Both the position numbers and the translations under genes were made by a program. Below the pieces are notes generated by a model that ran no database searches, was not told the origin of the DNA, and worked only from the letters and a program-made list of their open reading frames with translations. DNA of 64,000 nucleotides from Thraustochytrium sp. TN22 (taxonomy: Eukaryota; Sar; Bigyra; Thraustochytrida; Thraustochytriidae). Where the stretch lies: assembly GCA_013306675.1 (NCBI GenBank), contig JABLUY010000069.1, positions 84,000 to 147,999 of the forward strand. Direction: 5' to 3'. Shown here piece after piece: positions 7,942 through 63,710 of the stretch (within the stretch, counting starts at the first letter, position 1; every line of letters starts with the position of its first letter).

Positions 7942-8005
<64 letters not shown>

Positions 8006-13723: not shown

Positions 13724-13758
<35 letters not shown>

Positions 13759-13997: not shown

Positions 13998-14630
13998 CTT
14001 GCCGCTGGTGCGCTCGCTTCCCGCGCGACCCTCGCCCAGCGCGCGGGCGAGCGAGCGGTCCGGCCCGTCCCAGGCCTCCTGGGCGTGGACGGGCCGTCGC
14101 CGCCCTGCACGCCCGGCTGCTGGCGGAGACGGAAGCTCGCTCGCTCGCTGGCGACTTTGGTTGCAAAATCGATGGACGAAGTCGGCCGCTCGCCGGCCGG
14201 CCGCCGCACTCCGCTCGCCGCGGCCAGCGCGCGGGCGAGCCGGGCGCAGCGGCGGGCGCCCTCCGCGCCGCGGCCTCCGGTGCCGCCGCCGCGCGCGCGC
14301 GCGCGCGAGCGAACGAGCGAGCGAGCAAGCGAGCGAGCGGCGCGGCTCGGGCGGCGGGTGGGGACTCTCTCGTTGGGGCTTTGCTGCTCGGCGGCGGCGA
14401 CGAAGACGAACAAGGTGACTGAGACGGTGGGAGCAACCAAGGCTGCCGCGCAGCGCAGCACGTTCCGGTCCGTGGCGCGGGCGGGCCTCTGTGCGCGAGC
14501 ATTGCAAGGACGAGGAAGGAGACCAGCTCTTTAGAGCGCCGGCGAGCGTTTTAGAGTTCATCATGAAGGTCATGCGATCACAGGTGTCACAGGTGTTCAG
14601 GAGGAGGCTGAGGAGGAGGAGGAGGAGGAG
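13998..14630. other. upstream region of RME-8 and 3' flank of the next gene
   Basis: GC-rich interval with a GCGA-type tandem run at about 14307-14340 (GCGAGCGAACGAGCGAGC and similar). It likely contains the RME-8 promoter and 5' UTR and the 3' UTR of the phosphotriesterase-like gene upstream of it. The RME-8 reading frame remains open through most of it, but the translation is compositionally biased with no recognisable domain. Confidence 0.4.
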
Positions 14631-32288: not shown

Positions 32289-35200
32289 TTACTGATTCTG
32301 CAAGTATAGACGCATGGAGCCCTGCAATGCGGACGCAGCCTCCGGCGATAGCGTCTGGACGAGCGCTCGAAGCTCTGTTGCACGAGCCTTGGCGAGGAAG
32401 ACCAGCGCAGCCCGCCCGGCGGTGCGCGAGGCCTCGTCGCGCGGCAAGCCTCCACCGGTCTCACCGCCGCTTCCCTCGGCCAGCGACAGCGCGGCGGCCA
32501 TGGCGACCTGCACGAGCTCCGCGACGTGGACCGCGAGCCGGGCCAGCGTCAAGACGGCGGCGCCGGCGACGGTGAGCCCGCCCTTTAGCCGGTCATCTCC
32601 AAGAAGCTCGTCCTCCTCGCAGTCGGTCTCCGTAAGCGCGACTGGGTTGTCGCCCTGCGCACGCACGAGGCGCATGATGCTCGGACCGAGCCCTCCGGTC
32701 AAAGCGCGTACGGCGGACGGCGAGAGGTCCGGCTTGCCCGCCAGCTCGCACAGGACCGCCAGCGTACTCACAGTACACCACGGTTTGGCCTCCGCCCCTT
32801 CGCCGGTGAGCACCTTCTCTGCGAGGTCCGCCCCGAGGGCCGCAAGGGCTGCCACATCTACACATGGGCTAAGCTTGACGTGGCACAGCGCCGCGCACAG
32901 CTCTCGCAAGACCACAAAGACGCCCGACGGCAGCGCTTCACGCTCTGCCGCTCGAGCGAGCCTGGCAATAGCATCCTGCGTCTTGCAGTACAAGACGGGG
33001 GCGATGGACTGTGCATCCGCGCACAGGTCCACGCATGCTGCGAGAGCTGGGGAGATCAGGCCCTGGCGCCCGGCACCAGCTTCCACGTCGACCAGCGAGA
33101 GCGCGTTCCAGCCCAACATGCGGCCGCACTTGTCCGCGCACGACTCGGGCGCGCACCTGGCGAGGACAGTCAGGTTGGCGAGCGCGGTCGGCGCGACCTT
33201 GCTCAGCGCCGTCGCCCTGGCACCGGCATACAGGCCGGAATTGCTTCCTCGCCCGTATCCGGTCGTTGGTGGCGCCTCCGCGCTACTTCGCACAAGCTGC
33301 GCGAGATTGCCCGACATGAGCGCCTGCACAGGAAGCAGGACGGCGTGCGCCGAGGCCTCCCAGGCAGCGAGTCGCAGCACGGGTGCCTCCGCCTGGCCCC
33401 GAGCCGGCGGCTGGTCCTGGTCCTGGTCCTGGTCCTGGTCCTGGTGTTTGCCTTCGGCCTGGCCGGCATCGCGCGCATGCAGCTGCGCGAGTACGGTGAT
33501 CACGTGGTAAGCCTGTGCTGCGAAAAAATCTGCGTGCTGAATCTTGTAGGTTGCCGGCTCACGCAGGACTTGCTGGCTCACCTCCAGCGCCAGGGCCCTG
33601 CTCATGGCGTCCGAGGCGCCCTGCACTGGGAGTGTGAGCGCCGCGGTCTGGAAGATGGTCCCGAGCGGGAATGCGGGCCAATCCATCGGGCGGCCACGCG
33701 CAGCGAGAATGAGCGAGGTGCGCAGCACGAGGCCGACATCAACTTGACGCATCGGAAGCGCCTCCACGATGGTACTCAGCGCTCGGCCCACGATCCAGGC
33801 GGCATTCAAGTACGCCGGGAAGATCGCGACCGCATCGGAAGCATCCGCGAGGTCAAACGCGTCGGCCGCGTGCCTTGCGTCGTGCGCGAGGGGCACAGCA
33901 AGCTTGGCGACGTCCCGGATGACCCCCATCCAGGCGTCGACCAGGTCCTCGCGGCCCGTGCCGGCCGGCTGGCCACGCATATACTCCAGCAGAGCCTTCT
34001 CGATGCTCGCGCGCATGCCCTTGGTGCGCGAAGGCTTGCTGCGAAGCGCGCGCGGTACGCTCGTGGCCTTGTTGCCACGCCCAGGCGCCAGGTCGCAGCC
34101 CTGCGCGAAGAGCCACAGCCTCGCGAGGGGCGCAAGGCGGAGGACGAGCAGCTCCGCTTGCACAAAGGACGGCATGTGCGCCGCTGCCGGGCGGTCCTCT
34201 GGGAAGCCGCCGTCGATGCCCGTGGCGTCACCGCCAACCTCGTCCTCGTCGTCCTCGTCCTCATCCTCCTCGTCGCCCTTGCTGCCGGTAGCAATCTGCG
34301 AGGGCATGAGAAGGCCGACGATGCGACGCGCACTGGTTGACACGCCCGAGACGAGGAGCTGCACCGCTAGGGTGGCAACAAAGGGGAAGACGAGCGGGGA
34401 AGCGGAGCGGCCGAGCCCCGGCCCTAGCGTGGCCGTCAGCTGCATCTCGAATTGCTTGAGCACCGAGTCGTCGGGCTGGTGCTTGTCTTTGCTCGCAGCG
34501 AACATGCGAACTACCTCTACGAGTGCGCAGTACCCCTGGATGGAGAGCTGCGGGACCTCAGCGCTCTGCACGGTGCTGTTGGCGGCCTGCGAAGCGCCCG
34601 TCAGGAGCTCGCGCAGGTGCATGCAGATGAACTGGCCATGCGCGGGCACGTGCGCCTTTCGCAGGATGCGCTCCGCCTGTGCCTGGTCGCGGTGCACCGA
34701 GTACGTTTTGGCAATGCTCAGGACCTCCAGGAGTCCTTCGACGGCGAGCACCTTGGTCTCCCACGAGCACTTGCTAAGGAGCTGGTCGCAGAGCACGACA
34801 AAGCCCTGGACATCCTCGAGGCCCGGCAGCCCGATTGCGCTTGCGCCGCTGCCGCTGCCACCACCGCTGAGGGCTGCGCTGCCACCAGTAATGGCGCCCT
34901 GGCCGTCGTCGCCGCCGTCGCTCTCGTCGTCCTCGTCGTCGTCATCCTCGTCGTTGACGCCATCGGCCCGCCCCATCGGGTTGCCATCACCTACGCCGGA
35001 CGCATTCGCCCCAACACCCGCAAGATTGGCGCCCGAGGCGGCGGGCGACAGGCCGGCGCCCGCCGCGAGGCTTTGGCGTAGCGCTTCGGCCGCCCCAGTC
35101 ATCACAGCACGGAAGAGGCGCATCCAGTCGGTGAGCGCGGCGACGCCAGAAATCTCGTCCAGGTCCCAAGTGGACCCCTTCTTGTCGGCCGGCCGCATCT

Positions 35201-38200
35201 TCATGTGGCAGAGGCCAACAAATTTGAGCAGGTTCCGCAGCGCCACGATGCGCGCTGCCGAGACACCGCACGGGCCGGGGAGGGCGCCGCCGGACGGGGT
35301 CGCCAAGCCGGCCGCGAGTGCGTCCATCGTGAGGCCGCCTGCGCTTCCGACGAGGTGGCCTTGATCGCATGGCGCGGTGGCGCGGAAGGCCGCATTGGCG
35401 GCTTGGATGAGAAGCGGCTCCGTTGCCTGGTTCGGGCGCGGCGCCTCGCGCAGGAGGACGGCGCCGAAGCCGAGCGAGGACGCCGGCGGCACGACCCAGT
35501 CGTGGCAGAGCGCGGTGCGCGCCGCGAGCTCAAAGGCCACGAGACTGAGGGCGCCGCGCGCCACCTCGACGGCAGGGTGCGCCTGGCTGTCCATGCGCTC
35601 GGTGAGCAGCGAGAGCGCGTGCAGCGCCGCCATGCGCAACCCGGGCACACAGGCCTCGTGCGTGTCCGTGACGATGCTATGCAGGTGCGCGTACACGCGT
35701 GCGCTCTCGCACGGGTACTGCGCGAGGAGCTGCGGGTAAAAGAGGAGGATCTGCTCCACCATGCGCACGCACTCGAGCTGCAGCAGCGGGTCGCTGCTGG
35801 CGAGACGCAGCGCCTCCCAGATGTTGAGAAAGCGCTCTGCTTCAACGTCGGGACGTGCGAGCTCGGGTCCGAGGCCGGCGATGAGCGCGTTCGCCAGGCG
35901 CGCCAGACTGGCCATTGTGCCCATCATGACGTGCGCAGCGCCGTAGCCGCCGCGCTCCGGGTGGCCGTCCACGGCGAGGAGGTGCGCGTTGATGAGCGCA
36001 AGGCTGGGCGCGACAAACTTGCCCACATCGATGCCGGCGCTTTCGATGAGAACTTGCCACGCGTGAAGTGCCGTTGTCCGCACGGGCTGCGAGGTGACCT
36101 TGCATAGATCGTACACGATATTGTTCTTGACGTAACGAGTGTCCTGCGCCTCGGCCTCGCGCCGGATCATGGCCAGAGCGAGCACCACGCCGGCCTTGAG
36201 CGAAGCGGACACGCCGACGCCGCCGTTGCCGCCGTTGCCGCCTGCGCCCTGCGGTGCAGACCCAGCGGCAGAGCCCGGGCCAGAGGCTGAGGCGTTGCCA
36301 TTGATGGAGGCGGCACCTGGGGCGGATGCGGGCTCGCCGGTCAGCTTGCGAGTGAGCGCCTGCACAGCGTTAAAGCCGACGGTGGGACCGGCAAGGCGAG
36401 TCAGCAGGGCGAGGCCTTCGGCACAGGCGCGCCGCACGAGGCCGCGCGGGCTGGCAAGCGCGACGCAAAAGATGATGCGCATCTTGCTGACCCAGGTCGC
36501 CTGCTTGGGGTCCACCTGCGCCTGGAGTGTGGCGAGGCTGCGCAGGAAGGCGAGAAGGGCCGTGACGCCGTTGTGCAGGACGACGCCCTGCGCGCTGCCC
36601 GTGCGGCGCTTGAGCATGCTGAAGAGGTACTGGACAAAGTTGGCGCGGTCCGCGTCGGCGAAGACGCTCGTGAGGACGACCGCCGAGAACGCCACGGCCG
36701 CGTCGCTTGTGACAGTCTCTAGTTTGGCCGCGGAGATGCGGACAACGCCGCAGGCGGGCAGGCTATCAAAGAGGCCCGCCGTCTCCTCGGAGAGGTGAAT
36801 GGCGCCGCGCGCGAGCGATGCAGCGGCCTCATCCTCTGCGCCGCGCTGTCCGTCCTCGCCGCCGCAGTCGCCGCCAATGACGGCGACCGCAGCGTGGGAC
36901 GCATTGCAGGAGAGCGTGGCCATGCAGGCGCTGGCCGAGTTCATGGCCTCCTCGCGCGAGAGCGTGCGGGCGCGCTGGAAGAGCTGGCGCGAGGGCGAGG
37001 GCGGCAAGGCCTCCTCGAAGCGCCAGTCCGGGCGACCGAGCGGGCCCTGGCGCACAGCGGAGCCCGGGGCAAGGCCCTCGTCAGGGCTGTCCGGGGCGGC
37101 AGTCTCGAGGATGTCGTCGCCCGCGTGGAGCACGCCGGATCGGGAGCATAGGAGCGAGGAGAGCGCAGACTCCGACGCGGCCGCCTCGCGCTGACCGGCG
37201 GGGCCGAGAAAGTACGCCATGGCGAGACTCTGCAGCGGGATGACCACGGTCTGCTTGAACCTACGCAGCTCGACCCGAGGCAGCCAGGCGCAGACGTCAA
37301 AGAGCGAGGCGTGGATGCCCATGAAGACGTCGGCGAAGGGAAGGTCCCGCACGCCCTTGCGACTGGCCAGCATGACTTCCTCCACGAGGATAATGACGGC
37401 GCGGCTCACGGCCGGCATGTCGCGCAGCAGCGGCTGGTTGCAGCGCACAAATGCGCTGAGCGCGCGCAGCGCCGCTTCCAGACAGGTGAGCGAGGCGCGC
37501 AGCGCCGCGTCGCCGGCGATGAGCGCAGGCTGGCGCGAACGGGCCACAGTCTGCAGCGCAGGCAGGCTCTCCTCGACGGAAGACTGCCAGGCCTGGAAGA
37601 GCTGGCTCAGGTTCTCCTCGCACCACGAGGACCCGAGCGTGGTGAGCGCAGCGACCAGCGACCAGCCGCAGGCGGCGATGCGCGCCGTGGCGGCGGGCCG
37701 CGCGGACGAGTCGTGCTGGCGCGCCACGAGTGACTTGGCGTGTCCCAGGAGCGCCATGGCGGTATTCTCCGGTATGGCTTTGAGGTCACCCGAGAGCAGC
37801 GCTGTGCTGCTGTTGGGCACCTCGTGCCGCACAAAGTGCGCCGATGCGGGCAGCACGAGGTCTTCGCGCTGCAAGAACGCCTCGGCCGACTCGCTGCGGG
37901 GTCGTCCGTTGGCGCTCGACGCGTAGACGAAGACGCAGAGCGCGTGCACGAGGCCCTCGATGGCGTCCACGGTGCGTTCCGCCTCGGCGTCAAAGATCTG
38001 GCGCTCGGCGGGCGAAGCGTTGCTGGGCGGGCCGGACGCCAGCATGATGGCCAGCTCCGGCTGATACAGACCCACAAGCTGCAAGACTGGCATGATGCCG
38101 CGCGACGCATAGCCTGGCTGCGTAATGGCGCAGACGTAGAGTAGGTTGGCGGCCTCGAGCCGCACGGCGGAATCCGGGTGCTCCAGGAGCGGGAGAAGCG

Positions 38201-40142
38201 CCTGGAAGTCGAGCTCACGATGCAGCGCGCGCGCGGCGTCGCCCAAGGAGCTGAGCACGCAGGACGTCTGGTAGATGCAGGCCGAGATGAAGATGGCTCC
38301 GTGCTGGAGCTCAGTGTGCGCCGTGAGCGAGATGGACGCCATGGTCCGGCTGCCGCGGCGCTTGAAGGTGCTGGTGGTCGGCGCCCCGCCTGCTGACGCG
38401 GGCGCCGCGTTGCCACGCTGCCGCGTGCTGGCGGTCAGGAGAGAGCGCGCGAGCTCGATCTTGCCGCTTTCGGGCAGCTGCGTGGCGAGCGCGGTGCCGA
38501 GCACGTGAATGGCCGCGGCGCGGCGAAAGGCCTCCTCGCGCGCGCGAAGGTCGCCCGAGTCCATGATGGAGGGCGCGCGCGTCGTGTCGCAGAGGCCGCG
38601 CACAAATCCGAGCGTGGCACTGATGATCACATGCTGGCGCTCCGCGTCGCCAGCGCTGAGCAGTTGGCGGAAGAGCTCCGTGGCGGCCTCGGCGAACGCC
38701 ATGCGCACCTCCATGGCGCGTTGCACGTACTCGTCCAGGGCTTGCGCCTGCGCCGGGTCCGGACGCTTGGCCGGCGTCCAGGCATCGAAGCCACTCTGCA
38801 GCAAGTCCAGCGCGACGTCTAGAGTGTACACAGTCGGCGTCTCGGGCTTGGACCGTGCGCCGAGGGCGCCAAAGTTCGCGGTGAACCCGAAGCCACGCAG
38901 CTTGCTGCCAGTGCGAGGGGAGGCCGTGGCGCCAGACCCAGGGCTCGCGTTGCTGGCATTGCTGCCGCCACGCGCCCGGGGCGACGCGAGAGAGGAGATG
39001 CCCCCGCCCGGGAGCCCAGCCGAGGTGGCCTGGCTGGAACCTCCGGACGAGGACGAGGAGGACAGCGAGGAGGACGAGGAGGACGAGGAGGACGACATGC
39101 CGAGCTTGAGGCCGGCGAAGCGCGAGGCCACAGATGGTGCGGTCGCCGGCGAGGAGGAAGGCGCGGCGTCGGCAGCGTCCGCCGCGGCGCCCGGTTCGCC
39201 GGGAGCGCCGAGGCCGTCAGCATCTTGGCCAACGGGCCGAAGCGGGCCGGCGAGCTCCACAGCGACGCTGAGGATGGCGCCCAGCGCGCGCGCGAAGGCG
39301 GAGCGTACATGCGCAACGCGGTCCTCGAGGCCGCGGCGGCACATGGCCACGAGCTGGTCCACGGGCGCCGAGGCGAAGCGGTCGCTGACCATGGCCAGTG
39401 TAAGGGCCGCGTCGGCCACGGCCGCGCGCACCGGGGGCGCCTTGTCCGCCGAGGCGCGCGAGAGGATCTTGAGCACCTCGGCATGGTTGGACCGGCCGGC
39501 CGTCTCGGCGCCGCGCAGCGCAGCCGCGAGCGCGCGGACGGCTGCGCAGCGGTACTCGTTGTCAGCCGGCTTGGTGCTGGCGTGGCTCGTCATCTTGAAG
39601 ACGCGCGAGACGATCTGCGTCGTCTCGCGCAGGTGGCCCGCCAGCAGGCGGCCCTGGCGGCAGCCGCTGATCTCGCCGAGGCAGTGGAAGATTGCCGTCT
39701 TGGTCTGCGCCGAAAGCGCGGACTTGGGGCCCGCGTGGTCCTGCAGGTCGTTGGCAATGGCCATGATGTTGCGGTTGTCGCCTCGCTCCATGAGCGTGCG
39801 GTACAGGCGGCCCAGCAGGCGGCGGAACGCAGGCGACAGGCAGAGGCCGGCCAACTGGCCCAGCAAGATCTCCTTGAGCCCCTTCTCCACCGTGGGCTGC
39901 ACGACCCGGATGCGGTCGCGCTGTCGCAGCTGCGCGTCGCGGCCGGCATCCTCCGGCACGGGCTCGGTCAGCTCCTCCAGCAGCCTGCCCAGCTCGTGCA
40001 GAGCGTGAAAGGTCTTGACCTCCGCCGCATGCGCGCTGCCCGAGCCGCCCTTGGCCACCACGGCATTCAGGGCCAGCACCTCCGCCACCAGTAGCTGCAC
40101 CTGTTCCACCACCGCCGCCGCGCGCGCCTCCCCCGACGCCAT
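32289..40142 (-). CDS. HEATR5: HEATR5/SWEETIE/LAA1-type giant HEAT-repeat protein
   Basis: A 2617-residue single-exon protein. The N-terminus matches the HEATR5 pattern: a helical EVLALNAVV segment, FHALHELGRLLEELTEP, GDNRNIMAIANDL and KTAIFHCLGEISG, followed by alpha-solenoid repeats to the C-terminus (LRALVQTLSPEAASALQGSM). Family knowledge: HEATR5B/Laa1p associates with AP-1 and aftiphilin for clathrin-dependent TGN-endosome traffic; plant SWEETIE is the same family. Low-complexity inserts interrupt the solenoid: a poly-Ser run (forward 39045-39105), an acidic Asp/Glu run (forward 34900-34960), another near forward 34230-34280, and a DQDQDQDQDQ run (forward 33414-33446). These probably form loops. 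It starts at the first ATG in frame and is divergent from the scramblase gene. Confidence 0.85.
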   Translation of the reverse strand: MASGEARAAAVVEQVQLLVAEVLALNAVVAKGGSGSAHAAEVKTFHALHELGRLLEELTEPVPEDAGRDAQLRQRDRIRVVQPTVEKGLKEILLGQLAGLCLSPAFRRLLGRLYRTLMERGDNRNIMAIANDLQDHAGPKSALSAQTKTAIFHCLGEISGCRQGRLLAGHLRETTQIVSRVFKMTSHASTKPADNEYRCAAVRALAAALRGAETAGRSNHAEVLKILSRASADKAPPVRAAVADAALTLAMVSDRFASAPVDQLVAMCRRGLEDRVAHVRSAFARALGAILSVAVELAGPLRPVGQDADGLGAPGEPGAAADAADAAPSSSPATAPSVASRFAGLKLGMSSSSSSSSSSLSSSSSSGGSSQATSAGLPGGGISSLASPRARGGSNASNASPGSGATASPRTGSKLRGFGFTANFGALGARSKPETPTVYTLDVALDLLQSGFDAWTPAKRPDPAQAQALDEYVQRAMEVRMAFAEAATELFRQLLSAGDAERQHVIISATLGFVRGLCDTTRAPSIMDSGDLRAREEAFRRAAAIHVLGTALATQLPESGKIELARSLLTASTRQRGNAAPASAGGAPTTSTFKRRGSRTMASISLTAHTELQHGAIFISACIYQTSCVLSSLGDAARALHRELDFQALLPLLEHPDSAVRLEAANLLYVCAITQPGYASRGIMPVLQLVGLYQPELAIMLASGPPSNASPAERQIFDAEAERTVDAIEGLVHALCVFVYASSANGRPRSESAEAFLQREDLVLPASAHFVRHEVPNSSTALLSGDLKAIPENTAMALLGHAKSLVARQHDSSARPAATARIAACGWSLVAALTTLGSSWCEENLSQLFQAWQSSVEESLPALQTVARSRQPALIAGDAALRASLTCLEAALRALSAFVRCNQPLLRDMPAVSRAVIILVEEVMLASRKGVRDLPFADVFMGIHASLFDVCAWLPRVELRRFKQTVVIPLQSLAMAYFLGPAGQREAAASESALSSLLCSRSGVLHAGDDILETAAPDSPDEGLAPGSAVRQGPLGRPDWRFEEALPPSPSRQLFQRARTLSREEAMNSASACMATLSCNASHAAVAVIGGDCGGEDGQRGAEDEAAASLARGAIHLSEETAGLFDSLPACGVVRISAAKLETVTSDAAVAFSAVVLTSVFADADRANFVQYLFSMLKRRTGSAQGVVLHNGVTALLAFLRSLATLQAQVDPKQATWVSKMRIIFCVALASPRGLVRRACAEGLALLTRLAGPTVGFNAVQALTRKLTGEPASAPGAASINGNASASGPGSAAGSAPQGAGGNGGNGGVGVSASLKAGVVLALAMIRREAEAQDTRYVKNNIVYDLCKVTSQPVRTTALHAWQVLIESAGIDVGKFVAPSLALINAHLLAVDGHPERGGYGAAHVMMGTMASLARLANALIAGLGPELARPDVEAERFLNIWEALRLASSDPLLQLECVRMVEQILLFYPQLLAQYPCESARVYAHLHSIVTDTHEACVPGLRMAALHALSLLTERMDSQAHPAVEVARGALSLVAFELAARTALCHDWVVPPASSLGFGAVLLREAPRPNQATEPLLIQAANAAFRATAPCDQGHLVGSAGGLTMDALAAGLATPSGGALPGPCGVSAARIVALRNLLKFVGLCHMKMRPADKKGSTWDLDEISGVAALTDWMRLFRAVMTGAAEALRQSLAAGAGLSPAASGANLAGVGANASGVGDGNPMGRADGVNDEDDDDEDDESDGGDDGQGAITGGSAALSGGGSGSGASAIGLPGLEDVQGFVVLCDQLLSKCSWETKVLAVEGLLEVLSIAKTYSVHRDQAQAERILRKAHVPAHGQFICMHLRELLTGASQAANSTVQSAEVPQLSIQGYCALVEVVRMFAASKDKHQPDDSVLKQFEMQLTATLGPGLGRSASPLVFPFVATLAVQLLVSGVSTSARRIVGLLMPSQIATGSKGDEEDEDEDDEDEVGGDATGIDGGFPEDRPAAAHMPSFVQAELLVLRLAPLARLWLFAQGCDLAPGRGNKATSVPRALRSKPSRTKGMRASIEKALLEYMRGQPAGTGREDLVDAWMGVIRDVAKLAVPLAHDARHAADAFDLADASDAVAIFPAYLNAAWIVGRALSTIVEALPMRQVDVGLVLRTSLILAARGRPMDWPAFPLGTIFQTAALTLPVQGASDAMSRALALEVSQQVLREPATYKIQHADFFAAQAYHVITVLAQLHARDAGQAEGKHQDQDQDQDQDQPPARGQAEAPVLRLAAWEASAHAVLLPVQALMSGNLAQLVRSSAEAPPTTGYGRGSNSGLYAGARATALSKVAPTALANLTVLARCAPESCADKCGRMLGWNALSLVDVEAGAGRQGLISPALAACVDLCADAQSIAPVLYCKTQDAIARLARAAEREALPSGVFVVLRELCAALCHVKLSPCVDVAALAALGADLAEKVLTGEGAEAKPWCTVSTLAVLCELAGKPDLSPSAVRALTGGLGPSIMRLVRAQGDNPVALTETDCEEDELLGDDRLKGGLTVAGAAVLTLARLAVHVAELVQVAMAAALSLAEGSGGETGGGLPRDEASRTAGRAALVFLAKARATELRALVQTLSPEAASALQGSMRLYLQNQ

Positions 40143-41443
40143 CTCGCGGCCGCGCGAGCGCGCCCGGGTCGCGCGGCGCCGCCGCCACGTTCAAATTTTG
40201 CTTGTTGTCTTGTCTTGTCTCGTCTTGTCTTGTCTTGTCTTGTTGTTGCTGTCGTTGGGTGACATAGGCCTCGTGACGGTGATGACGATTGCGGCCCGGC
40301 GCGCGGCGCGGCAACCATCATCGACCATCAACGACCGCGATGCGATGCACGGCGAGCACCCGGCCAGCTCATTGATTCCATCCACCGCGTGCTTGCCTCT
40401 GCGAGCTTTTCTTTCCTGTGGTGATGAGTTTGCCGAGGCCTAACAACCGCATCATCACGGACTCCTTGACTCTGACGTGCGTCGCTGTATGTATCACGTT
40501 CGCTGGCACTGCGACTTGCCAGATCCAATCACCTGAGCGCATAGTCGGACCGTCGTTCCACGTTGCGGTCATCGTCATCGTCGTCATCGTCGTCGTCATT
40601 TTCATCATCATCGTCATGGTACCTGGTACCCTACCCTACCATGCCAGTGCCGCCGCTCCTCGTTTCCGATTCCTGCACTTTGCTCTCCGAGTCGTACGCC
40701 CTTGCGCTCGGAATCCTGCAGCCAGGCAGCTCCTGCAGCCTCCTGCAGTTCGCAATCTCGTTCGCATGCATGTCGCTCCAGCGTCCATGTGCGGGCGGGC
40801 CGGCTCCCAACGTGTCAGACACAGCGTCCGGCCGACAAGGACTCGGACTTCGCCACGGCACCCAAGTAGACTGGCCGACAGAGCCGACACTGCCCAGCTA
40901 GCTAGCCCTCGCCTTCGGTTTGATCGCACTGCACCTCCGGCCACGGCACGCCCTATGGCTAACATAAATGCACCACCCATGCTTGCTTTGCTTGCTTGGA
41001 CTGCGAGTTGTGAGTTGGCTGCAATGGCCGGCAGTGACGGAGAGTGAAGTTCCCTTTCAAAGACTCAGTCACCGCCAGCGGTCCCACTGCACAAAGTTGC
41101 CTCGCTTGCTCTTCTTGGCGGAGCCATCTCACGGTCAGGAAGCTGGGCGCCGCGCCGCCGTCCGCCTGCGCATGCTCGGGCAGCGGGCAGCAATTCCGGA
41201 ACCCGAATCGAGGCAGCAAGCGACCTCGGTGGGCGCGCGCGGGCCGCGTCGGCGCGGCTGCTCGCAGGCTTCGGCTCGGCCCGGCGGTCGCGCGGAGGCT
41301 GCAGCGGTGGTCGACGCGCTCGCGGCGTCGCGCGGACTTGGAGAACCCGCCCCTGGCGAGCTAGCTACTAGCTAGCTAGGGAGCTGGCAACGGTCGAGAG
41401 GCGCAAGTACGAGCCGGAGGCGGCCTCCGGAGGCGAAGGCAAG
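40143..41443. other. divergent intergenic region upstream of HEATR5 and scramblase
   Basis: About 1.3 kb. It contains a TTGTC pentamer run (40200-40245) in the presumed HEATR5 leader, a TCATCG/TCGTCA microsatellite (40568-40618) that translates as a Val/Ile string, and CTAGCTAGC runs (40898-40908 and 41360-41380). I found no supported exon. Confidence 0.4.
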
Positions 41444-52436: not shown

Positions 52437-52775
52437 GGGCCGGCCCCCGACGGCGGCGCCGCGCGCGTGCCGCTGGAAGGCGGCGGCGAACCGCCGCGAC
52501 GCGCCGCCGGCGCCGCCGCGCGCGCGCCCCTGCATCCTCGCGCGCCGCCGCGCCGGGAGCGCCGCCGCGTCGCGGTCTGCGGGGGCTCGCGCGCGCCGCC
52601 GCGCAGGCAGGCCGCGCGAGGCCCGCCCGCCCGCCTGCCTGCCTGCCTGCCTGCCTGCGCCGCGTTTGAATTTTGAATGCGAGAATGCGGGAGGCAGGCA
52701 TGCAACGGCGCGCCGGTCTCGGCGGCCGCGCGCGCGCGCGGCGGCGGCGGCGGCGCGGGCGGCGGCGCGGGCAGC
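52437..52775. promoter_or_regulatory. shared divergent promoter region with CCTG microsatellite
   Basis: A 339-bp gap between the divergent fucosyltransferase-like and kinesin start codons. It includes a CCTG tetramer run (about 52633-52658) followed by TTTGAATTTTGAATG, and a CGCG/GCGGCGGC run just before the kinesin ATG. No TATA box is evident. Confidence 0.4.
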
Positions 52776-55700
52776 ATGGCGGGCGGCGGGCGCGAGAACA
52801 TCCGCGTGCTGGTGCGCATCAGGCCCGACGAGGAAGGCAGCGGCGACGGCGGCCACGGGAATGGCGCGCACGGCGGGGTTCAAACGCGGGGCGCAGGAGC
52901 CCAGGGCACAGGCGCGAGCGTGAGGCAGCGCGGAGAGCAGGGGCTCGAGGTGCGGCGCGCAGAGGCCCAGGCGAGGGCGTTCCAGTTTGATCGCGTCTTT
53001 GGGCCGAGAGCCTCGCAGGTGGACGTGTATGCGGTGGTGGACCCGCTCGTGGCGAGCACGGTGCAGGGCTACAATGCGACCATCTTCGCGTACGGGTCGA
53101 CCGGTTCCGGGAAGACGCACACCATCAGCGGGTCGCCAGGGCAGGAGGGCATCATCCCGCGCGCCGTGCACCGCATCTTCGACCTGGCAGAGGAGCTCGC
53201 GGCGCGCGAGGCAGACGGCATCGTGCTCGTGCACATGGGCTACGTGGAGCTGTACAACAACCAGTTCAAGGACCTCCTGCACGCCACGCCGGCCGCGGCT
53301 GCGGCGCACAGTAGCAACGCCAACCTCGGCGGCGGTCTCGGGTCCGGCATCGTGGGCCCCGTCGGCAGCACCGGCAGTGCCAGCAGCCCGGGCGCCTCCT
53401 CCTCCTCCGGGGGCAGCCCGCACAAGAAGGCGCCCCGCATCGAGCTGCACACGACCAAGTCCGGATCGGTCTTCCTCAGCGGGTCGCCCTCGCTGCACAC
53501 GCCCGTGACCAGCGCACGCGAGGCGCTGCGGCTCGTGCAGGCCGGCGGGCGCAACCGCGCCGTGGGCGCGACGGACTGCAACGAGCACAGCTCGCGCAGC
53601 CACGCCGTGCTCACCTTCTACGTGGAGAGCCGCATGCCGGCGGCCGACGGCTCCTTCGTGTCCAAGCTGGGCAAGCTGCACCTCGTGGACCTGGCCGGCA
53701 GCGAGCGCCTCTCGTTGTCGCGCGCCGAGGGCCAGACGCGCACCGAGACGCAGAACATCAACCTCTCGCTGTCCACGCTCGGCGACGTGCTCTCGGCGCT
53801 GTCCAAGCTGCACACGGGCGCCAACGCGGGGCGCGCCCGCGCCGACGCGCGCGCGCGCGTCCCGTACCGCAACAGCAAGCTCACCTTTCTGCTCAAGGAC
53901 TCCCTCGGCGGCAACTCCAAAACCGTCATGATCGCCACCATCCGCACGCCCGAGCGCTACCACCAGCAGACGCTCATGACGCTGCTGTACGCGGAGCGCG
54001 CCAAGAAGATCCAGAACCGCATCCACCTCAACACGGACACCGAGGGCGACTCCAAGGCCGCGGCGCTCGTGGCCGAGGTGGAGCGCCTCAAGGCGCAGCT
54101 GCGCCAGCGCGAGGCCGACTTTGAGCGTCTCAGCCGCCAGGCCGGGCCCGACGGCCCGCTCCTGGACGCCGCCGGCGAGCAGCGCCGCATGGACCAGCTC
54201 ACGCGCCTGGCGCGCGAGAACGAGCTCGAGAAGGAGCGCCTCGAGGCCTGCTTGCGCCAGGTCGTGCACACGCACGCTTCCAAGCTCACCGTGCAGCAGG
54301 AAAAGTACAGCTCGCTCCAGGTTAAGCTCGCCGAGTACAAGTCCGTCTTTGACCGCCAGCGCGTCGAGATCGAGAGTCTGCGCGCCTCCGTGCGGGAGCT
54401 CGCCAACGGCGCCACCGAGGACGAGGTCGAGGAGATGAAGGCCATGGTTGAGAAGCTCGCCTCCGCGCTCGCCGCTGCGCGCCAGGACGCGCTCCACCAC
54501 AGCCAGCGCGCCGACCACCTCGACCGCCAGCTGCGCGTCGCGCGAGACCATGTCGTCGGCCAGACCTCGCAGCACGGCGCCGTGCAGCTCCAGGTTGACG
54601 ACCTGCGCGAGCAGCTCAAGACCGCCAGGCACCAGTACGAGGCGCTCAAGGCCGCCAGCGTCGACACCTTGCGCGAGCTGGACCGCGTGCGCGGCCTCGA
54701 GCGCGACCAGCGCTCTGAGGCCGACCGCCTCCGCCATCTCCTTGCCGACACCCAGGCCGCCGCTGCCAAGTCGTCCCCGCCGCCACCACCGCCGCCGCCG
54801 CCGGCAGTGCCACCGGAAGGCTGCGCCGCCTGCGCGGCCACGCGCGCCAAGTATGACCTGGCCATCACCGGCCTGCACGACGAGGTGCGCGAGGCCCTGG
54901 CCGCCAAGGACGCCCAGCTCCGCGACGAGGCCGCGGCGCGCGCGGCGGACCGCGAGGACCACCGCGCCAAGCTCGCGGCGCTCGAGCGGGAAAAGGCAGC
55001 GGTGCTCGAGGCCGCCTCCGAGGCGCAGCAGCTCGCCAGCCAGATGCGCGCGCAGCGCGACCAGGCCCGCGCCGCCGTCGCGCAGGACGGACCGGACCGC
55101 CACGCACTGCAGCGCGACCTCGAGGAGGCCCGCAAGCGCCTCCACGCGTCCCAGTCGCTGCAGCGCGACCTGGACCAGGCCCGCGAGCGCCTCCAGGCGG
55201 CCGAGGCGCGCACGCAGACGCTCGAGCGCCAGCTCGAGGGGCTCGACCAGGTCTCCGCCTCCGCGGCCAGTCTGCGCGCCGATCTCGCAGCAGAGACCGA
55301 GGCGCGCGCGCGCGCCGAGCGGCGCGCCGAGGACGCCGCTCGACGCGCAGAGCAGGCCGGGACGCGCCTCGCGGCCCTCGACGAGCAGCTCGAGCGTGAG
55401 CGCGAGGCCAAGTCAACCCTCGAGCGCGACCTCCGCGCGCAGCAGCACGCGCTGCAGGCAGACCTCGAGCGGGAGCGCGAAGCCAGGGTCGGGCTTGAAA
55501 GCGACCTCCGCGTCAGCCGGCGCGCCGCCGACGAGGGCCAGAAGAAGACCGAGGAGGAGAACGCCGCCCACCTGCAGGCGCAGGTCGACCGGGCCCGCGC
55601 CGAGCGCGACCGCGGCCTCCTGCGCGCCGAGGAGCTCATCCAGCAGGCCCAGGCCAGCGCCAAGGCAAAGTGCGAGCGCGCCGACGCCCAGCTCGCGGAG

Positions 55701-58700
55701 CTCGAAACCATGCTCACCGCCGCTCGTCAGGAGCACGAGGGCGCACTCGCGCGCGCCGAGGCTCGCGCCCGCGACCTCGATGCTGCGCACGACGATCGCA
55801 TTGCCGTGCTCGCCCAGGAGCGCGACGCGGCACTCGCCCAGGCAGCCGCGCGCGCGGAGCACCTGCAGACGGCCAAGGACGAGCTTGCGCAGGTGCGCGA
55901 CGAGCTCCAGACCGCGCGCAGCCAGTCCGCCGATCGCGGCAATCAGCTCGAGGCGCAGCTGCGAGAGGTTGCTGCGAAGCACGACGCCCAGGCGCAGTGC
56001 GTGGAGCAACTCAAGGCGCAGCTGGCGGACGCCAAGCGGAGCTCGACGCAGGAGATGGAGTGGCTCGAGACACAGCTCCAGCTCGCCAAGACAAGCTCAC
56101 AAGAGGAGGTGGAGCGCTCCAAGACGCAGCTCCGGGACGCGAAGACGAGCTCGAAGGAGGAGATGGAGCGGCTCGAGGCCCAGCTGCAGGATGCAAAGAC
56201 CCGCTACGAAGCGGAGCTGGAGCGACTGCGCGCGCAGCTGGAAGACGCGAGGACAAGCTCAGAGAAGGAGACGGAGCGGCTCAAGACGCAGCTGCGAGAC
56301 GCCAGGACGAGCTCGCAAGAGGAGATCGCCCTTCTTCGCCAGCGCGCAGAGGCGCTGGCCGCGGAGCTCGACGCCAAATCCGAGGCCTTGACCGTCGCCG
56401 GTCAGCGGGCGGATGAGCAGATGCGGAGCGCCGAGGACGCTCTTCAGCAGCGCCTCCAGGACGCGGACAAAGAGTCGGCGCTCCTCCGCCAGCGTGTCGA
56501 GGCCCTGGCCGCGCAGCTCGACGAGAAGACCGAGGCCATGGCCGCCGCCCGGCAGGACGCTGCGCACGCGGAGCAGCGGGCGAACGAGCGTCTGCGAAGT
56601 ACCGAAGGCGCCCTTGAGCAGCGCATCAAGGCGCTCGAGGCGCAGCTGCGAGACGCAAAGACGAGCGCCGGCGAGGACCTGGCACAGGTGCGGCAGCGAG
56701 CCGAGACGCTGGCCGCGCTGGTCGACGAGAGGACCGAGGCCATGTCTGCTGCCGATCAGCACGCGAGAGAGCAGATGCGGAGCGCCCAAGAGCGCATCGA
56801 GTCGCTCGAGGCGCAGCTGCAGGACGCAAAGGCCAGCTCGAGCGAGGAGATTGCGCTCCTTTCGCAGCGCGTCCAGGCCCTGGCCGCGCAACTGGAAGAG
56901 AAGGCCGAGGCCTTGGCCGCTGCTCGGCAGGACGCTGCCCAGGCGAGACAAGTCGCGAGCGGCGCCGAGAGCGCGTCGCAGCAGCGCATCAGGGCGCTTG
57001 AGGAGGAAAGAACGAGCTCTGAGGAAGCTCTCGCGCTGGTGCGAGAGCGCGTGAAGGCTCTGACGCACGCCGAGGCGCAGCTTCGCGAGGAGCGCGAAGA
57101 GGCCGCGACGAGTGCGCGCAAGGCGGAGGAGCGGGCTGAGCGGCTCCAGCTGCAAGTGGAGAGCATGCGGGCACAGCAGGGCGATGGGAAAGCCCAGCTG
57201 GCTGCGGCGGAGCACGCGCGCAAGGAGCTAGAAGAGCGGGTCGCGCGCCGGGCCGAGGAGGCGTCGCGACTTCGCGAGGCGCTGGAGAGAGCGCAAACCG
57301 AGGCCAAGGAGGCCGCCGCGGCACGTGCGGGGGCGCTGCGTGCTGTGGAACGCGCCGAGCAGGCTCTGGTCCGGCACCGCGAGCGGGAAGCGGAGCTGGA
57401 GCAGGCCGTGCAGCAGGCGCGCGCCGCTGCGCTCCTGGAGGCGGAGGACGCTCGAGTCTGGCAACGCGCGCAGGAAGCGGCAGGAGGAGGCGGCGCCGAT
57501 TCGGCGCCCTCCTCGCTCAAGGCGGCCACGGGGACGGTGGCGGCTCTGCTCGCGTCGCGCGAGGCTGAACGGGCGCGCGTGGAGGAGCTGGAGGCCGCGT
57601 GCGCACGACTTGAAGGCTCCGCGGGGGAGCGACTGGAGCGCGTCGAGGCGGAGCGCGAGGCGGCGCGACGCGAGGTAGACGCGCTGCGCGCGAAGCTCAA
57701 CGTGCAGCTGGACTGGGTGGAGGACCTCAAGACACAGCGGGCGACGCTGGAGGAGAACCTGGTGGAGTCTTCGCGGGAGCTGAAGCGGCTGCGCGGCGGC
57801 CTGGACGACCTGCAGCACGTGCAGCAGGAGCTGGGCTGCCTGCGCGCGGAGAACTACGGGCTCAAGGCGGCGCATGCGGACAAGCTCGCACGCGCGGAGG
57901 CCGGCAAGACGCGGGTCGAGGAGGCGCGGCGCGCGGACCAGGCGCGGCTCGCGCGATTCTCCGCGCAGCTCGAGACGGCGCGCGCGGCGCAGCGCAAGTG
58001 GGTGCAGGACCGGCAGCGTGTGAAGCGCGCGCTGGCCGAGGCCATGGCCGGCATGTATGGCAGCTTCGAGGGCGTGGTGGACCGGCTCAAGCAGAAGCAG
58101 GTCCCGGTGCGGCTGGCGCGGCTCGCGGGCCAGGTGGACGCGCTGCGGCAGCGCGGCATGGGCAGCGCGGGCGGCGCGGGCGGCCGCGGACACCGAGGTG
58201 CGACGGCCGGCGACGGCCGGCGACGGCAGCGTGTGGAGCAGCACGGGCTGGAGCTGCGCGCCAAGTTGCGGTCCGCGCGAGAGACGCAGGACCGCCTGCT
58301 GCATGAGGTCAAGGAGCAGGAGAACTCCACGGTGAGCCGCCTGCTCTTGGCGCGATCCACGGCGGGCGGCAAGCGGGCGGAGGGTATTCCGCCGCACTCG
58401 CCGGCGAGCGACGCGGGCCTCGGCGAGTACAAGCTCGCGGTGCTCAACGCGTGTCTGCGAGGGGATGTGGACGGGCTCTCGCAGGCGCTGGCGGTGGGCT
58501 TCTTCCGCGAGGACTTTGACGCGAGCTTTCTGCCGCTGCACCGCGTGGTGTCGGGCTACCACTTTCATGGCAGCGCGGACCGCGTGGTTCTGGCACTGCA
58601 ACTGCTGGTGAGCAAGGGCGCGCCGATCAATGCGCCGGACGTGGCGGGCAACACGGTCCTGCACAAGGCCATCCAGGTGGTCCCGGGCGACGCCATCGTC

Positions 58701-59021
58701 GTGGTCCTCCGCGCGCTGCTGGAGCTTGGCGCCGACGTGAACGCGGCCAACAAGCTGGGCGACACGGCCCTGCACACGGAGCTGCGCCGGTTGCGCGCGG
58801 CCTCGCCCGCCGTCGTGCGCACGCTCGTCCGCGGCGGCGCCCGCGTGCACGAGGGCACCCGCGTGCGCAGCCCCGGGTTCCTCGGCAGCCCAGGCCGGGG
58901 CGGCCCGCCGTCGCCTCTGGAGCTCGCCGAGGCCGTGGTCCGCGACCTTGGCGCCGACGCGCCGCGTCCCTTTGTGGACATGCTCGCCGGTCTCCGCGCC
59001 GCCGTCGTGCCGTCGCCGTGA
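52776..59021 (+). CDS. kinesin with long coiled coil and C-terminal ankyrin repeats
   Basis: A 2081-residue kinesin from ATG 52776 (MAGGGRENIRVLVRIRP). The N-terminal motor (about 1-430) has P-loop GSTGSGKT (107-114), switch I NEHSSRSHAV (269-278) and switch II LVDLAGSER (303-311), so it should hydrolyse ATP. Gly/Ser-rich inserts lie after the first strand and around residues 178-218. A very long coiled coil (about 430-1790) includes a poly-Pro break near residues 667-678 and internal repeats of QLRDAKTSSQEEVER type (about 1090-1180) plus longer LLRQRVEALAAQLDEK-type units. The tail (about 1889-2045) has ankyrin-like repeats, for example GAPINAPDVAGNTVLHKAIQ and GADVNAANKLGDTALHTELR. The motor-first layout predicts plus-end movement (inference). 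An ankyrin tail is uncommon in kinesins. Confidence 0.93.
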   Translation: MAGGGRENIRVLVRIRPDEEGSGDGGHGNGAHGGVQTRGAGAQGTGASVRQRGEQGLEVRRAEAQARAFQFDRVFGPRASQVDVYAVVDPLVASTVQGYNATIFAYGSTGSGKTHTISGSPGQEGIIPRAVHRIFDLAEELAAREADGIVLVHMGYVELYNNQFKDLLHATPAAAAAHSSNANLGGGLGSGIVGPVGSTGSASSPGASSSSGGSPHKKAPRIELHTTKSGSVFLSGSPSLHTPVTSAREALRLVQAGGRNRAVGATDCNEHSSRSHAVLTFYVESRMPAADGSFVSKLGKLHLVDLAGSERLSLSRAEGQTRTETQNINLSLSTLGDVLSALSKLHTGANAGRARADARARVPYRNSKLTFLLKDSLGGNSKTVMIATIRTPERYHQQTLMTLLYAERAKKIQNRIHLNTDTEGDSKAAALVAEVERLKAQLRQREADFERLSRQAGPDGPLLDAAGEQRRMDQLTRLARENELEKERLEACLRQVVHTHASKLTVQQEKYSSLQVKLAEYKSVFDRQRVEIESLRASVRELANGATEDEVEEMKAMVEKLASALAAARQDALHHSQRADHLDRQLRVARDHVVGQTSQHGAVQLQVDDLREQLKTARHQYEALKAASVDTLRELDRVRGLERDQRSEADRLRHLLADTQAAAAKSSPPPPPPPPPAVPPEGCAACAATRAKYDLAITGLHDEVREALAAKDAQLRDEAAARAADREDHRAKLAALEREKAAVLEAASEAQQLASQMRAQRDQARAAVAQDGPDRHALQRDLEEARKRLHASQSLQRDLDQARERLQAAEARTQTLERQLEGLDQVSASAASLRADLAAETEARARAERRAEDAARRAEQAGTRLAALDEQLEREREAKSTLERDLRAQQHALQADLEREREARVGLESDLRVSRRAADEGQKKTEEENAAHLQAQVDRARAERDRGLLRAEELIQQAQASAKAKCERADAQLAELETMLTAARQEHEGALARAEARARDLDAAHDDRIAVLAQERDAALAQAAARAEHLQTAKDELAQVRDELQTARSQSADRGNQLEAQLREVAAKHDAQAQCVEQLKAQLADAKRSSTQEMEWLETQLQLAKTSSQEEVERSKTQLRDAKTSSKEEMERLEAQLQDAKTRYEAELERLRAQLEDARTSSEKETERLKTQLRDARTSSQEEIALLRQRAEALAAELDAKSEALTVAGQRADEQMRSAEDALQQRLQDADKESALLRQRVEALAAQLDEKTEAMAAARQDAAHAEQRANERLRSTEGALEQRIKALEAQLRDAKTSAGEDLAQVRQRAETLAALVDERTEAMSAADQHAREQMRSAQERIESLEAQLQDAKASSSEEIALLSQRVQALAAQLEEKAEALAAARQDAAQARQVASGAESASQQRIRALEEERTSSEEALALVRERVKALTHAEAQLREEREEAATSARKAEERAERLQLQVESMRAQQGDGKAQLAAAEHARKELEERVARRAEEASRLREALERAQTEAKEAAAARAGALRAVERAEQALVRHREREAELEQAVQQARAAALLEAEDARVWQRAQEAAGGGGADSAPSSLKAATGTVAALLASREAERARVEELEAACARLEGSAGERLERVEAEREAARREVDALRAKLNVQLDWVEDLKTQRATLEENLVESSRELKRLRGGLDDLQHVQQELGCLRAENYGLKAAHADKLARAEAGKTRVEEARRADQARLARFSAQLETARAAQRKWVQDRQRVKRALAEAMAGMYGSFEGVVDRLKQKQVPVRLARLAGQVDALRQRGMGSAGGAGGRGHRGATAGDGRRRQRVEQHGLELRAKLRSARETQDRLLHEVKEQENSTVSRLLLARSTAGGKRAEGIPPHSPASDAGLGEYKLAVLNACLRGDVDGLSQALAVGFFREDFDASFLPLHRVVSGYHFHGSADRVVLALQLLVSKGAPINAPDVAGNTVLHKAIQVVPGDAIVVVLRALLELGADVNAANKLGDTALHTELRRLRAASPAVVRTLVRGGARVHEGTRVRSPGFLGSPGRGGPPSPLELAEAVVRDLGADAPRPFVDMLAGLRAAVVPSP
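56040..57000 (+). repeat. coding tandem repeats in the kinesin coiled coil
   Basis: DNA-level repetition inside the kinesin stalk. Short units (about 51-54 bp, coding QLRDAKTSSQEE variants) run at about 56040-56340. Longer units (about 200 bp, coding LLRQRVEALAAQLDEKTEA variants) follow to about 56960. Drift between copies is substantial, but the register is preserved, as expected for expansion by unequal crossing-over under coiled-coil selection. Confidence 0.7.
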
Positions 59022-61616: not shown

Positions 61617-61924
61617 CTTTAGTTGAGCGCGCACAAGAACTTTGTAGGCTAGCTGATTATCTCCCTTGAAGCGAGATTGACGACAGATGAGTGAAGAGAG
61701 AAGAAATGCGAAGAAGAGAGGAGAAATGCGAAGAAGAGAGAAGAAACGCCAAGAAGAGAGAAGAAACTCGAAGAAACTTGATTTTTACCTTGCGATAGAC
61801 AACTCGGCAGGTGGGCAAGACCCACACATGCGCGAGTGATGACGAGCTCGCCAAGAAGGCAAGGACGTCAACATCGTGCGAGGCCATGGTCGAGCGGCTC
61901 GTGGGCGGCACGCGCGAGAAGCCT
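61617..61924. other. convergent 3' interval with purine-rich tandem repeats
   Basis: Between NOC3 and the selenoprotein 3' UTR. At about 61690-61790 there are five or so units of an AGAAGAGAGAAGAAAYGC-type repeat. The rest is presumed 3' UTR. Confidence 0.45.
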
Positions 61925-61927
61925 ATT

Positions 61928-61978
61928 GTCAAGCACGAGCCTGTCCCAAAAGAGGGCTTTAGCGGCTCGTGCCATCAT
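61928..61978 (-). promoter_or_regulatory. type II SECIS element
   Basis: Read on the minus strand. The 5' AUGA is at 61978-61975 and the 3' UGA at 61931-61929, giving the tandem G.A/A.G quartet (61976 with 61929, 61975 with 61930) flanked by a U.U pair (61974 with 61931). Above it is a helix of one G.U pair and nine Watson-Crick pairs: GCACGAGCC (61972-61964) against GGCUCGUGC (61941-61933). An unpaired AAA (61960-61958) sits in the apical 5' loop, and a CCC/GGG mini-helix (61956-61954 with 61947-61945) caps it, making it type II. It lies about 155 nt after the selenoprotein stop, in the correct strand and order. This element recruits SBP2 and eEFSec so UGA is read as selenocysteine. Confidence 0.88.
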
Positions 61979-62133
61979 CGGCCGCGTCGATGGACGACGG
62001 GGCAGGGCAGTCTCGCGCGATCGCGACCCAACACGAGCGCGCTCTGTGTGCTGTGCTGTGCTGTGCTGTTAGCAGCAGCAGCAGCAGCAACAGCTGCTGC
62101 GCCGGCGCCGGCGCCGCGCAGTCTACGGTTCGC

Positions 62134-62412
62134 TTACTCCTCGTAGAACTTGCGCACAGCCGCCTTGATCTCCTCGATCGCCGCCGCACGCTTGCTCGCG
62201 TACTTGCGGAAGAGGCGGCGCTGGTCGCCGGACCAGATCACCTCGCCATCTTCCGACTCCACGGAGACCTGGATCGGGTACGAGTCGCTGCCCTCCTCGA
62301 CCACCTCGGCGTCAGGGAGCACCTCCAGCACGCTCTGCTTGGCCGTGCTCAGCTCCTGACGTCCGCCGTCTCAGTTGAAGCTCCACCGCACGATCACCTT
62401 GGGGCCCGCCAT
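62134..62412 (-). CDS. small selenoprotein, Rdx/SelW-T-H-like, Sec14 encoded by in-frame TGA
   Basis: A 92-residue protein from ATG 62412 (MAGPKVIVRWSFN) through an in-frame TGA (62373..62371, Sec14) to TAA (62136..62134). The downstream part (DGGRQELSTAKQ, then VLEVLPDAEVVEE, YPIQVSVESEDGEV and LFRKYASKRAAAIEEIKAAV) is amphipathic, well-formed protein. Predicted order is strand, redox loop, helix, two to three strands, helix, as in the thioredoxin-like Rdx family (SelW, SelT, SelH). Those use CxxU; here the loop is SFNU, so the resolving Cys is replaced by Ser. No usable splice pair removes the TGA. The SECIS in the 3' UTR is the decisive support. Role by family: a redox regulator, substrate unknown. 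I cannot name the subfamily. Confidence 0.85.
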
Positions 62413-63710
62413 GCTGCCGACCTGCGCCCTCGCCCTCGCCGCCCTGCCCAGCTCTGCCTGCTGCTGACGCCGACGCCGACGCTGCCGCGCAAGACAATGG
62501 CAATCTGCTCTGATTCTGCTGCGTCGCGGCGTTGTCAGAGTCGGAGAAAAGCGAGGCCGTTCGCGCCCCTTCAAATGAAGGGGATCTGAGCCTCAGTGCC
62601 CGTCAAGCTGGGCGCGCTGACCCGGCTGATCATTTCGTGCATAGGTGCTCGTTGCTTCTACTGCGACGCGAGAGGACTCGCTGCTCATCATCACTCACGC
62701 ATCGGTCCATGCGAGGCTTGCAAAGCGGAAGGTACGAGGCATACGCAAAGTCCTTGGCGTAGAGCAAGCGCGAGCAAGCGCCAAGGGTCAGCTCCATCCC
62801 GAGTCCCGACACAAGGCTGCAGGGGAGAGCCACGAACCCGCACTCGCCTCTCACTCACATCCTGCCATGGCCACATCCTCATGCGCCGGCAGAGCTGTGG
62901 TGATGGGATGCAGCGCGATCATCCGTGATGAGCGTTTCTAGCTAGCTTAGTTACCCCTGGTGCCAGCTGGTGGGCGCGGCCCGCGACCCGACTCGTGTGA
63001 AAGCGTTGGCGTCCGACTCGCTGGCGCGACTCTCCACCCTGGCTGCTTGCTGCAGCAACGCCGCCGCCAGGGCGGCGAGAAGCGGGAAGAATGACCTTTT
63101 CGTGAACGTCATCCCCCGGGCCGCGCCAGGCACCTCGGCCATCTCGGATTCGCAGTACCTTCTCATTCCACGCGCGGCGTGACGTGCTCGCACTTCACGA
63201 CTGGCCGCCGCGCGCCGCAGCGCGTGGCGCCGCCGCTCGCGCTTTGCTCGCAGTGCGTCCGTCTACGTGCCTGCCTGCCGCTCGTCTGCCCAGCGGCGAG
63301 CTGCGTCCCTCGCCTGCCTTGTCGCGAGCCTCCGAGGCCGAGCGCGACCTGGCGAGAGCGCAGGCGGCGCGCGCCGCGCCACCGGCGCCGCTCGCGCGTG
63401 CTCGAAAGGAACAAGCGGGCTCCAAGATCGCCGTGCAAGGCTGCAAGCGTGCCGCACTAGGCCTACTGGGAGCGGCGGAGCCTGGAGGGAACCTGTCTCG
63501 CGCCGCGTGCAGGCGAGCGACCGCGCGGCGCTGCAGAGCGAGCGGAACTTGAAGGCAGCGGCAGACCCCGGCAGACCCGCATCGAACGGCGCGAGCGGAC
63601 GCGGGGCGTCGCGCCGAGGGAGGCGTGCGAGACGCAGCGAGGCCAGCGAGGGGTGCCCTGCGCGTGCAAGCTCCAGAGCCGGCGGGGTCTACTTGCGCGT
63701 GCGTGCACAG
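62413..63710. other. divergent intergenic region before the LRR gene
   Basis: About 1.3 kb between the selenoprotein and the LRR gene. 62590-62960 is moderately AT-richer, and 63180-63650 is very GC-rich. A minus-strand frame near 63115-62951 starts MTFTKRSFFPLLAALAAALL, signal-peptide-like, but it is only about 53 residues and has no family match, so I do not call it. No RNA gene recognised. Confidence 0.4.

Follow-up and report, generated by a model that had tools for sequence, protein, structure and literature searches.

The candidate selenoprotein gene and its surroundings

The stretch of DNA analysed (hereafter the window: 64,000 nucleotides, G+C about 68%) carries on its minus strand a short open reading frame (ORF) that is interrupted by one in-frame TGA, and is followed on the same strand by a SECIS-like hairpin (Table 1). 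The gene content of the window is eukaryotic, and includes kinesin, NOC3, RME-8, HEATR5 and an AP medium subunit: an unbroken 2114-residue ORF at 52677-59021 (+) combines a kinesin motor at its N-terminus with ankyrin repeats at its C-terminus, and two further unbroken ORFs, 2405 and 2633 residues long, at 7413-14630 (-) and 32289-40190 (-), carry RME-8 and Laa1/Sip1/HEATR5 domains. Introns look rare, since ORFs in the neighbourhood run unbroken for 861 to 2633 codons, and from the long ORFs of the window the genome as a whole looks intron-poor. A tRNA scan of the window recorded no tRNA.

Table 1. Positions of the candidate selenoprotein gene and its SECIS-like element, numbered from the first nucleotide of the window
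Feature	Position	Strand	Remarks
Coding sequence	62412-62134	(-)	92 residues plus TAA; TGA at codon 14 read as selenocysteine; no cysteine encoded
AGC codon, Ser11	62380..62382	(-)	Corresponds to the partner Cys of SelW (Cys10)
In-frame TGA, proposed Sec codon (U14)	62373-62371	(-)	Loop S11-F12-N13-U14; in register with Sec13 of SelW
Proposed 3' UTR, stop to SECIS	61979..62133	(-)	CTG and GCACA-type runs; extent inferred
SECIS-like element with apical mini-helix	61978-61928	(-)	
ATGA of SECIS-like element	61978-61975	(-)	
Helix of SECIS-like element	61973-61964 with 61941-61932	(-)	10 bp (GGCACGAGCC/GGCTCGTGCT, one G-U pair)
Apical AAA of SECIS-like element	61960-61958	(-)	Inside the 22-nt apical part
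Mini-helix of SECIS-like element	CCC 61956-61954 with GGG 61947-61945	(-)	
TGA of the quartet	61931-61929	(-)	

Reading frame and codon usage

Translation of 62412-61928 (-) with TGA read as U gave 92 residues extending to a TAA at 62136-62134, the TGA at codon 14 being the only interruption of its kind. The ATG at 62412 is preceded by A at -3 and followed by G at +4, which by the Kozak rule is a good start context. Scored with a model of codon usage built from the 9,079 codons of six neighbouring ORFs, the candidate frame reached +62.5 bits, against -92 to +8 for the other five frames; this value was attained by none of 2000 shuffles, and equalled or exceeded by 1.4% of the 18,208 same-length frames of the window, real genes being included among them. 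The 13 codons 5' of the TGA contributed +4.3 bits, a value attained by 22 of 2000 shuffles. The GC3 of the candidate was 1.0 in the codons ahead of the TGA and 0.91 in those that follow (kinesin ORF 0.90, NOC3 ORF 0.93), and codon usage on both sides of the triplet was that of the neighbouring genes.

Since the kinesin and other ORFs end in TGA, this triplet is an ordinary stop codon in the window. For 24% of random anchors, an ORF of the candidate type, with one TGA, lies within the 20-600 nt upstream: the candidate ORF alone is consequently weak evidence, and the evidential weight falls on the SECIS-like element and the protein fold.

The whole gene is spanned by an antisense ORF of 206 codons at 61969-62589 (+). 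A Pfam search with this ORF returned no match and the antisense frames of the coding sequence scored no more than +8 bits, on which grounds it was rejected as a gene and is taken to be a shadow frame of GC-rich third positions.

The SECIS-like element

The hairpin begins 155 nt past the stop codon, and 392 nt past the UGA, and has the features of a eukaryotic SECIS, namely an ATGA/TGA core, a long helix, apical A's and a position past the stop, together with an Rfam match that lies below the cut-off. The core hairpin has a folding energy of -23.6 kcal/mol (z -3.5), which none of 200 shuffles equalled; with added flank the fold was less remarkable (z -2.29 and -1.57). A grammar describing the element found it as the sole match on both strands of the window and found one match in 60 dinucleotide-shuffled windows, an optimistic figure since the grammar was composed after the candidate had been seen.

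In a scan of 1.2 kb, the Rfam model SECIS_1 aligned end to end with 61988-61918 (-) and scored 22.2 bits (E 0.18; cut-off 35); it was not among the rows of a scan of the whole window at E up to 10. For calibration, the model was compared with 40 prokaryote genomes (rounded sizes summing to about 146 Mb), which should contain no eukaryotic SECIS: 13 of them had matches at E up to 10, for a total of 16 matches scoring 14.8-20.5 bits, the number of first-look candidates scored being limited to 98 in some genomes. SECIS_1 matches also occurred in four of 14 control genomes, none over the cut-off, with scores that stand outside the 16-match comparison.

The preliminary description had put forward a selenoprotein gene in which a 92-codon frame, with coding sense on both sides of one TGA, is followed by a complete SECIS in the 3' UTR. 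Translation and codon usage agree with the first part of that account, while all of the core parts of the element are present, as borne out by the grammar, the core fold and the sub-cut-off Rfam alignment; frame, coding bias and SECIS anatomy together uphold the selenoprotein reading. Two repetitive tracts were recorded nearby on the same strand: CTG and GCACA-type runs at 62041-62100 (-), within the proposed 3' UTR, and TTTCTTCTCTCTTCTTCGCA-like repeats at 61690-61780 (-), beyond the SECIS-like element.

Predicted fold

The best AlphaFold2 single-sequence model had a mean pLDDT of 73.9 and a pTM of 0.61, the mean pLDDT values for the five models being 73.9, 73.8, 70.2, 69.5 and 52.6, the last of which is poor. 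The modelled order of elements (E6-12, H18-31, E36-41, E48-53, E58-63, H72-91) is the strand-helix order of Rdx proteins and SelW, so that the beta-alpha-beta-beta-beta-alpha thioredoxin-like fold of Rdx is present by prediction. Foldseek returned no fold match in the PDB at E ≤ 0.001. Among the best 50 of 1,021 rows, mouse SelW (2npb) was top by TM-score (0.60/0.63 over 90 columns), and the Rdx entries 2fa8, 2obk, 2oka and 2p0g were also included; in the order of E-values, mouse SelW came eighth, after three chains of complex I and four of the mitoribosome. Entries 8ud1 and 6yj4 are listed under the B8/NDUFA2 subunit and 9hcd under mL43. A selenoprotein gene with a predicted fold of this kind is well supported, and so, at the level of the model, is the designation of that fold as Rdx.

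Comparison with Rdx proteins and searches for relatives

For profile comparison, 117 Rdx matches were reduced to 107 distinct bacterial ORFs and, after thinning, to 23, which were combined with four animal sequences (human SelW, mouse SelW, human SelH and a MIEN1 fragment) to give a mixed profile. The hhalign score of the candidate against this profile was 22.0 (shuffle mean 10.7, sd 2.2; 0 of 150 as good; probability 18%), the alignment being limited to residues 4-62; against the animal sequences only, the score was 17.2 (shuffle mean 9.8, sd 2.1; 0 of 150 as good; probability 3%). In both runs the Sec column aligned to the CxxC/U catalytic column. By hhalign, the similarity of the candidate to the profile thus exceeds chance, its proposed catalytic residue being in register with that of Rdx; HMMER with the same mixed profile gave non-significant values, with third and fifth place among the window chunks (E 5.7 and 8.5).

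An hhalign ranking against the mixed profile covered 2,186 overlapping six-frame stretches of the window plus the exact ORF (2187 sequences in all): the candidate-bearing stretch headed the list, and the exact ORF took third place behind a 15-column match from elsewhere in the window (22.5). An unrelated stretch at 26772-27101 (-), in another frame with TGA read as Cys, stood above the candidate in the HMMER comparison at a non-significant E of 0.71, and was outside the top eight by hhalign.

Pairwise alignments to SelW, SelH, MIEN1, two bacterial Rdx proteins and NDUFA2 all scored no better than shuffle noise, being matched by between 116 and 479 of 1000 shuffles, and the Rdx marks TGxFEV and GGF/GDGY are absent from the candidate or altered. 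The 92-residue protein had no match in Pfam, NCBIfam or PHROGs; its C-terminal 65 residues alone drew three Pfam rows (E 0.17-0.21), all below the cut-off. A sequence search of the PDB gave three rows only (E 0.095-0.85), at chance level. The candidate protein alone was used to search two DNA collections, plasmids (tblastn) and IMG/VR viral contigs, and no relative was detected in either; nor was anything found when viral and genome contigs were searched with a SelW alignment that included the candidate. Because the Pfam and NCBIfam models miss the candidate, similar genes could be overlooked. A single sequence is insufficient to make a subfamily. On predicted fold and profile comparison the candidate probably belongs to Rdx, the evidence from sequence alone being weak.

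Of the known proteins considered, SELENOW (SelW; Rdx, PF10262) resembles the candidate in length (87 against 92 residues), in the position of Sec (13 against 14), in strand-loop-helix order, in its C-terminal helix and in the fold match to 2npb; the candidate differs in having Ser for the partner Cys, no cysteine, neither the TGFFEV nor the GDGY mark, and no Pfam match. With SELENOH (SelH), a local alignment covers residues 1-83 of the 92, with Sec placed on Sec and a shared DG..+W+G near strand 4, although this alignment is in shuffle noise (182 of 1000 as good) and the candidate differs in having no N-terminal extension and Ser for Cys. The SelH sequence used here scores as Rdx.

A redox loop with no partner cysteine

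Two features that define Rdx are lacking: the candidate does not reach the cut-off of the Rdx (PF10262) family model, and its loop, S-F-N-U, contains no CxxU/CxxC redox pair. S11-F12-N13-U14 aligns with C10-G-A-U13 of SelW and, with no cysteine in the whole protein, Sec14 would be the sole thiol- or selenol-type redox residue. The earlier claims of an Rdx-like strand-loop-helix layout from which the partner Cys has gone are thus sustained, the former by the AlphaFold model, the SelW TM-score and the hhalign ranking, and the latter by the loop itself and its alignment to SelW.

By way of comparison, all 107 bacterial Rdx ORFs have CxxC, in a set biased to that motif because most members were retrieved via a YCxQC pattern. 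Among the 83 Rdx matches listed, the only protein with an internal stop is a further one, encoded in a bacterial genome of the same phylum sample (G142, L114; C1:3071489-3071692), where an in-frame TGA gives YCGAUGYKP, as in a SelW-like selenoprotein.

According to an algal survey, SELENOW carries CxxU except for two UxxU cases, those of amphioxus and Ostreococcus lucimarinus (PMC7539508): these resemble the candidate as natural changes at the partner position of the Rdx motif, and differ in that the partner there is a second Sec, whereas in the candidate Ser takes its place and no redox pairing is left. Other papers describe SelW-like proteins with CxxU from an ocean survey (PMC2398784), CxxU in both SelW1 and SelW2 of Chlamydomonas (PMC9404770), and two Sec residues in a SelW-like protein of O. 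lucimarinus (PMC2375036). A search of open-licence papers, by text passages, titles and abstracts, found no report of SxxU in Rdx. The uses of SxxU that were found there concern SelO mutants (PMC3994087), a mercuric transport protein, and a peroxiredoxin (PMC1794560). Peroxiredoxins with a T/SxxU/C site share with the candidate a Sec three residues after Ser/Thr rather than Cys, and belong to another protein family (PMC1794560).

Altered proteins with serine in the loop have been studied: NMR work on SelW deployed a C10S-U13C form (PMC5364654), and an SxxC form of SelO trapped a partner protein (PMC3994087). The 2npb chain has Ser10 and Cys13 and, given the SelW form used, Ser is evidently tolerated there in the fold.

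Alternative explanations

The sequence searches with no Rdx family match, and the complex I and mitoribosome chains that fill the first seven Foldseek rows by E-value, favour a selenoprotein of some other thioredoxin-like group (L51/S25/CI-B8, as in NDUFA2 and mL43) or of a new fold family. However, profile similarity above chance was not found for that group with a two-sequence NDUFA2 profile, itself the weaker of the two profiles, against which the candidate's versions ranked 268 to 306 of 2187 compared with 1, 3 and 4 for Rdx; SelW is also the best match by TM-score among the best 50 of 1,021 rows and the Sec falls on the Rdx catalytic column, all of which makes this assignment unlikely. 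The probability is lower again that the TGA lies inside a short intron (AAG/GTGATC...GTCAG/), the 42 nt of which, codons 6-19, would be removed in frame. A donor-like AAG/GTGA and an AG in the right phase are indeed present and the 42 nt carry a weak codon signal (+1.3 bits), but splicing would deprive the modelled domain of its first strand and entire redox loop, no pyrimidine tract is evident, the SECIS-like element would be left unexplained, and the long neighbouring ORFs are unbroken.

Just as improbable as the intron is a decayed or misread gene, in which a former Cys codon is now TGA or has been made so by sequencing error: TGC and TGT are one base from TGA and the gene is known here from one copy, yet a complete SECIS past the stop is unexpected for a Cys gene, the TAA is reached with no second stop, and codon bias is intact on both sides of the TGA. 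The slightest likelihood attaches to a chance juxtaposition of a GC-rich hairpin and an ordinary short ORF, for which the frequency of one-TGA ORFs upstream of random anchors, the sub-cut-off Rfam score and the missing SECIS_1 row in the whole-window scan all speak; set against these, the shuffled windows gave one SECIS-like site in 60 (optimistic, the grammar being post hoc), the 22.2 bits exceed all 16 matches listed for the 40 prokaryote genomes, and the ORF independently heads the Rdx profile ranking.

Proposed mechanism and significance

The explanation that we consider likely is a nuclear gene for a 92-residue, eukaryotic SECIS-dependent selenoprotein, Rdx-like and with a lone Sec14, that would act as an externally resolved one-selenol oxidoreductase or sensor. 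The frame, SECIS anatomy, coding bias and absence of cysteine are direct observations, and the Rdx fold is a prediction; from these we infer that in vivo the UGA at codon 14 would be decoded as Sec under the control of the 3' UTR SECIS, the chemistry and substrate that follow being argued on the same basis. The product would adopt the thioredoxin-like fold of a minimal Rdx domain such as those of SelW and SelH, running from a strand through the redox loop to a helix, three strands and a second helix, and Sec14 would occupy the position of the catalytic Cys/Sec of Rdx proteins. With Ser11 in place of the partner Cys of CxxU and the protein otherwise free of Cys, an internal selenenyl-sulfide is impossible, and the absence of any cysteine would imply a different resolving mechanism. 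Sec14 may attack a disulfide or peroxide, giving either a mixed intermolecular selenenyl-sulfide with substrate or glutathione or a selenenic acid, and an external thiol, whether of glutathione, of thioredoxin or of a client Cys, could then free it; the protein would most likely serve as an oxidoreductase or sensor that relies on one selenol. Comparable externally resolved chemistry is provided by monothiol glutaredoxins and GPX4-like enzymes. Glutathionylated SelW has been isolated from rat muscle (PMC5364654).

A broader proposition, to which we give rather less than even credence, is that the candidate represents a natural Rdx lineage, conserved in one group of protists, which has lost the redox pair and kept the lone Sec. 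A dithiol-type SelW/SelH fold would there have become a one-selenol enzyme or sensor that is resolved by glutathione or thioredoxin and stays joined to its clients in long-lived mixed selenenyl-sulfides. The function of SelW/SelH-type proteins is unsettled, CxxU being a main ground for terming them "putative oxidoreductases" (PMC7278666). A natural Sec-only member would show that the partner Cys is dispensable in the Rdx fold, and would constitute a ready-made trap form, the partners of which should stay bound as mixed selenenyl-sulfides.

At the opposite end of the window, an unbroken 1302-residue ORF at 228-4133 (+) combines AMP-binding, PP-binding, NAD_binding_4 and short-chain dehydrogenase domains, and on this domain content is predicted to be a carboxylic-acid-reductase-like enzyme fused to an SDR.
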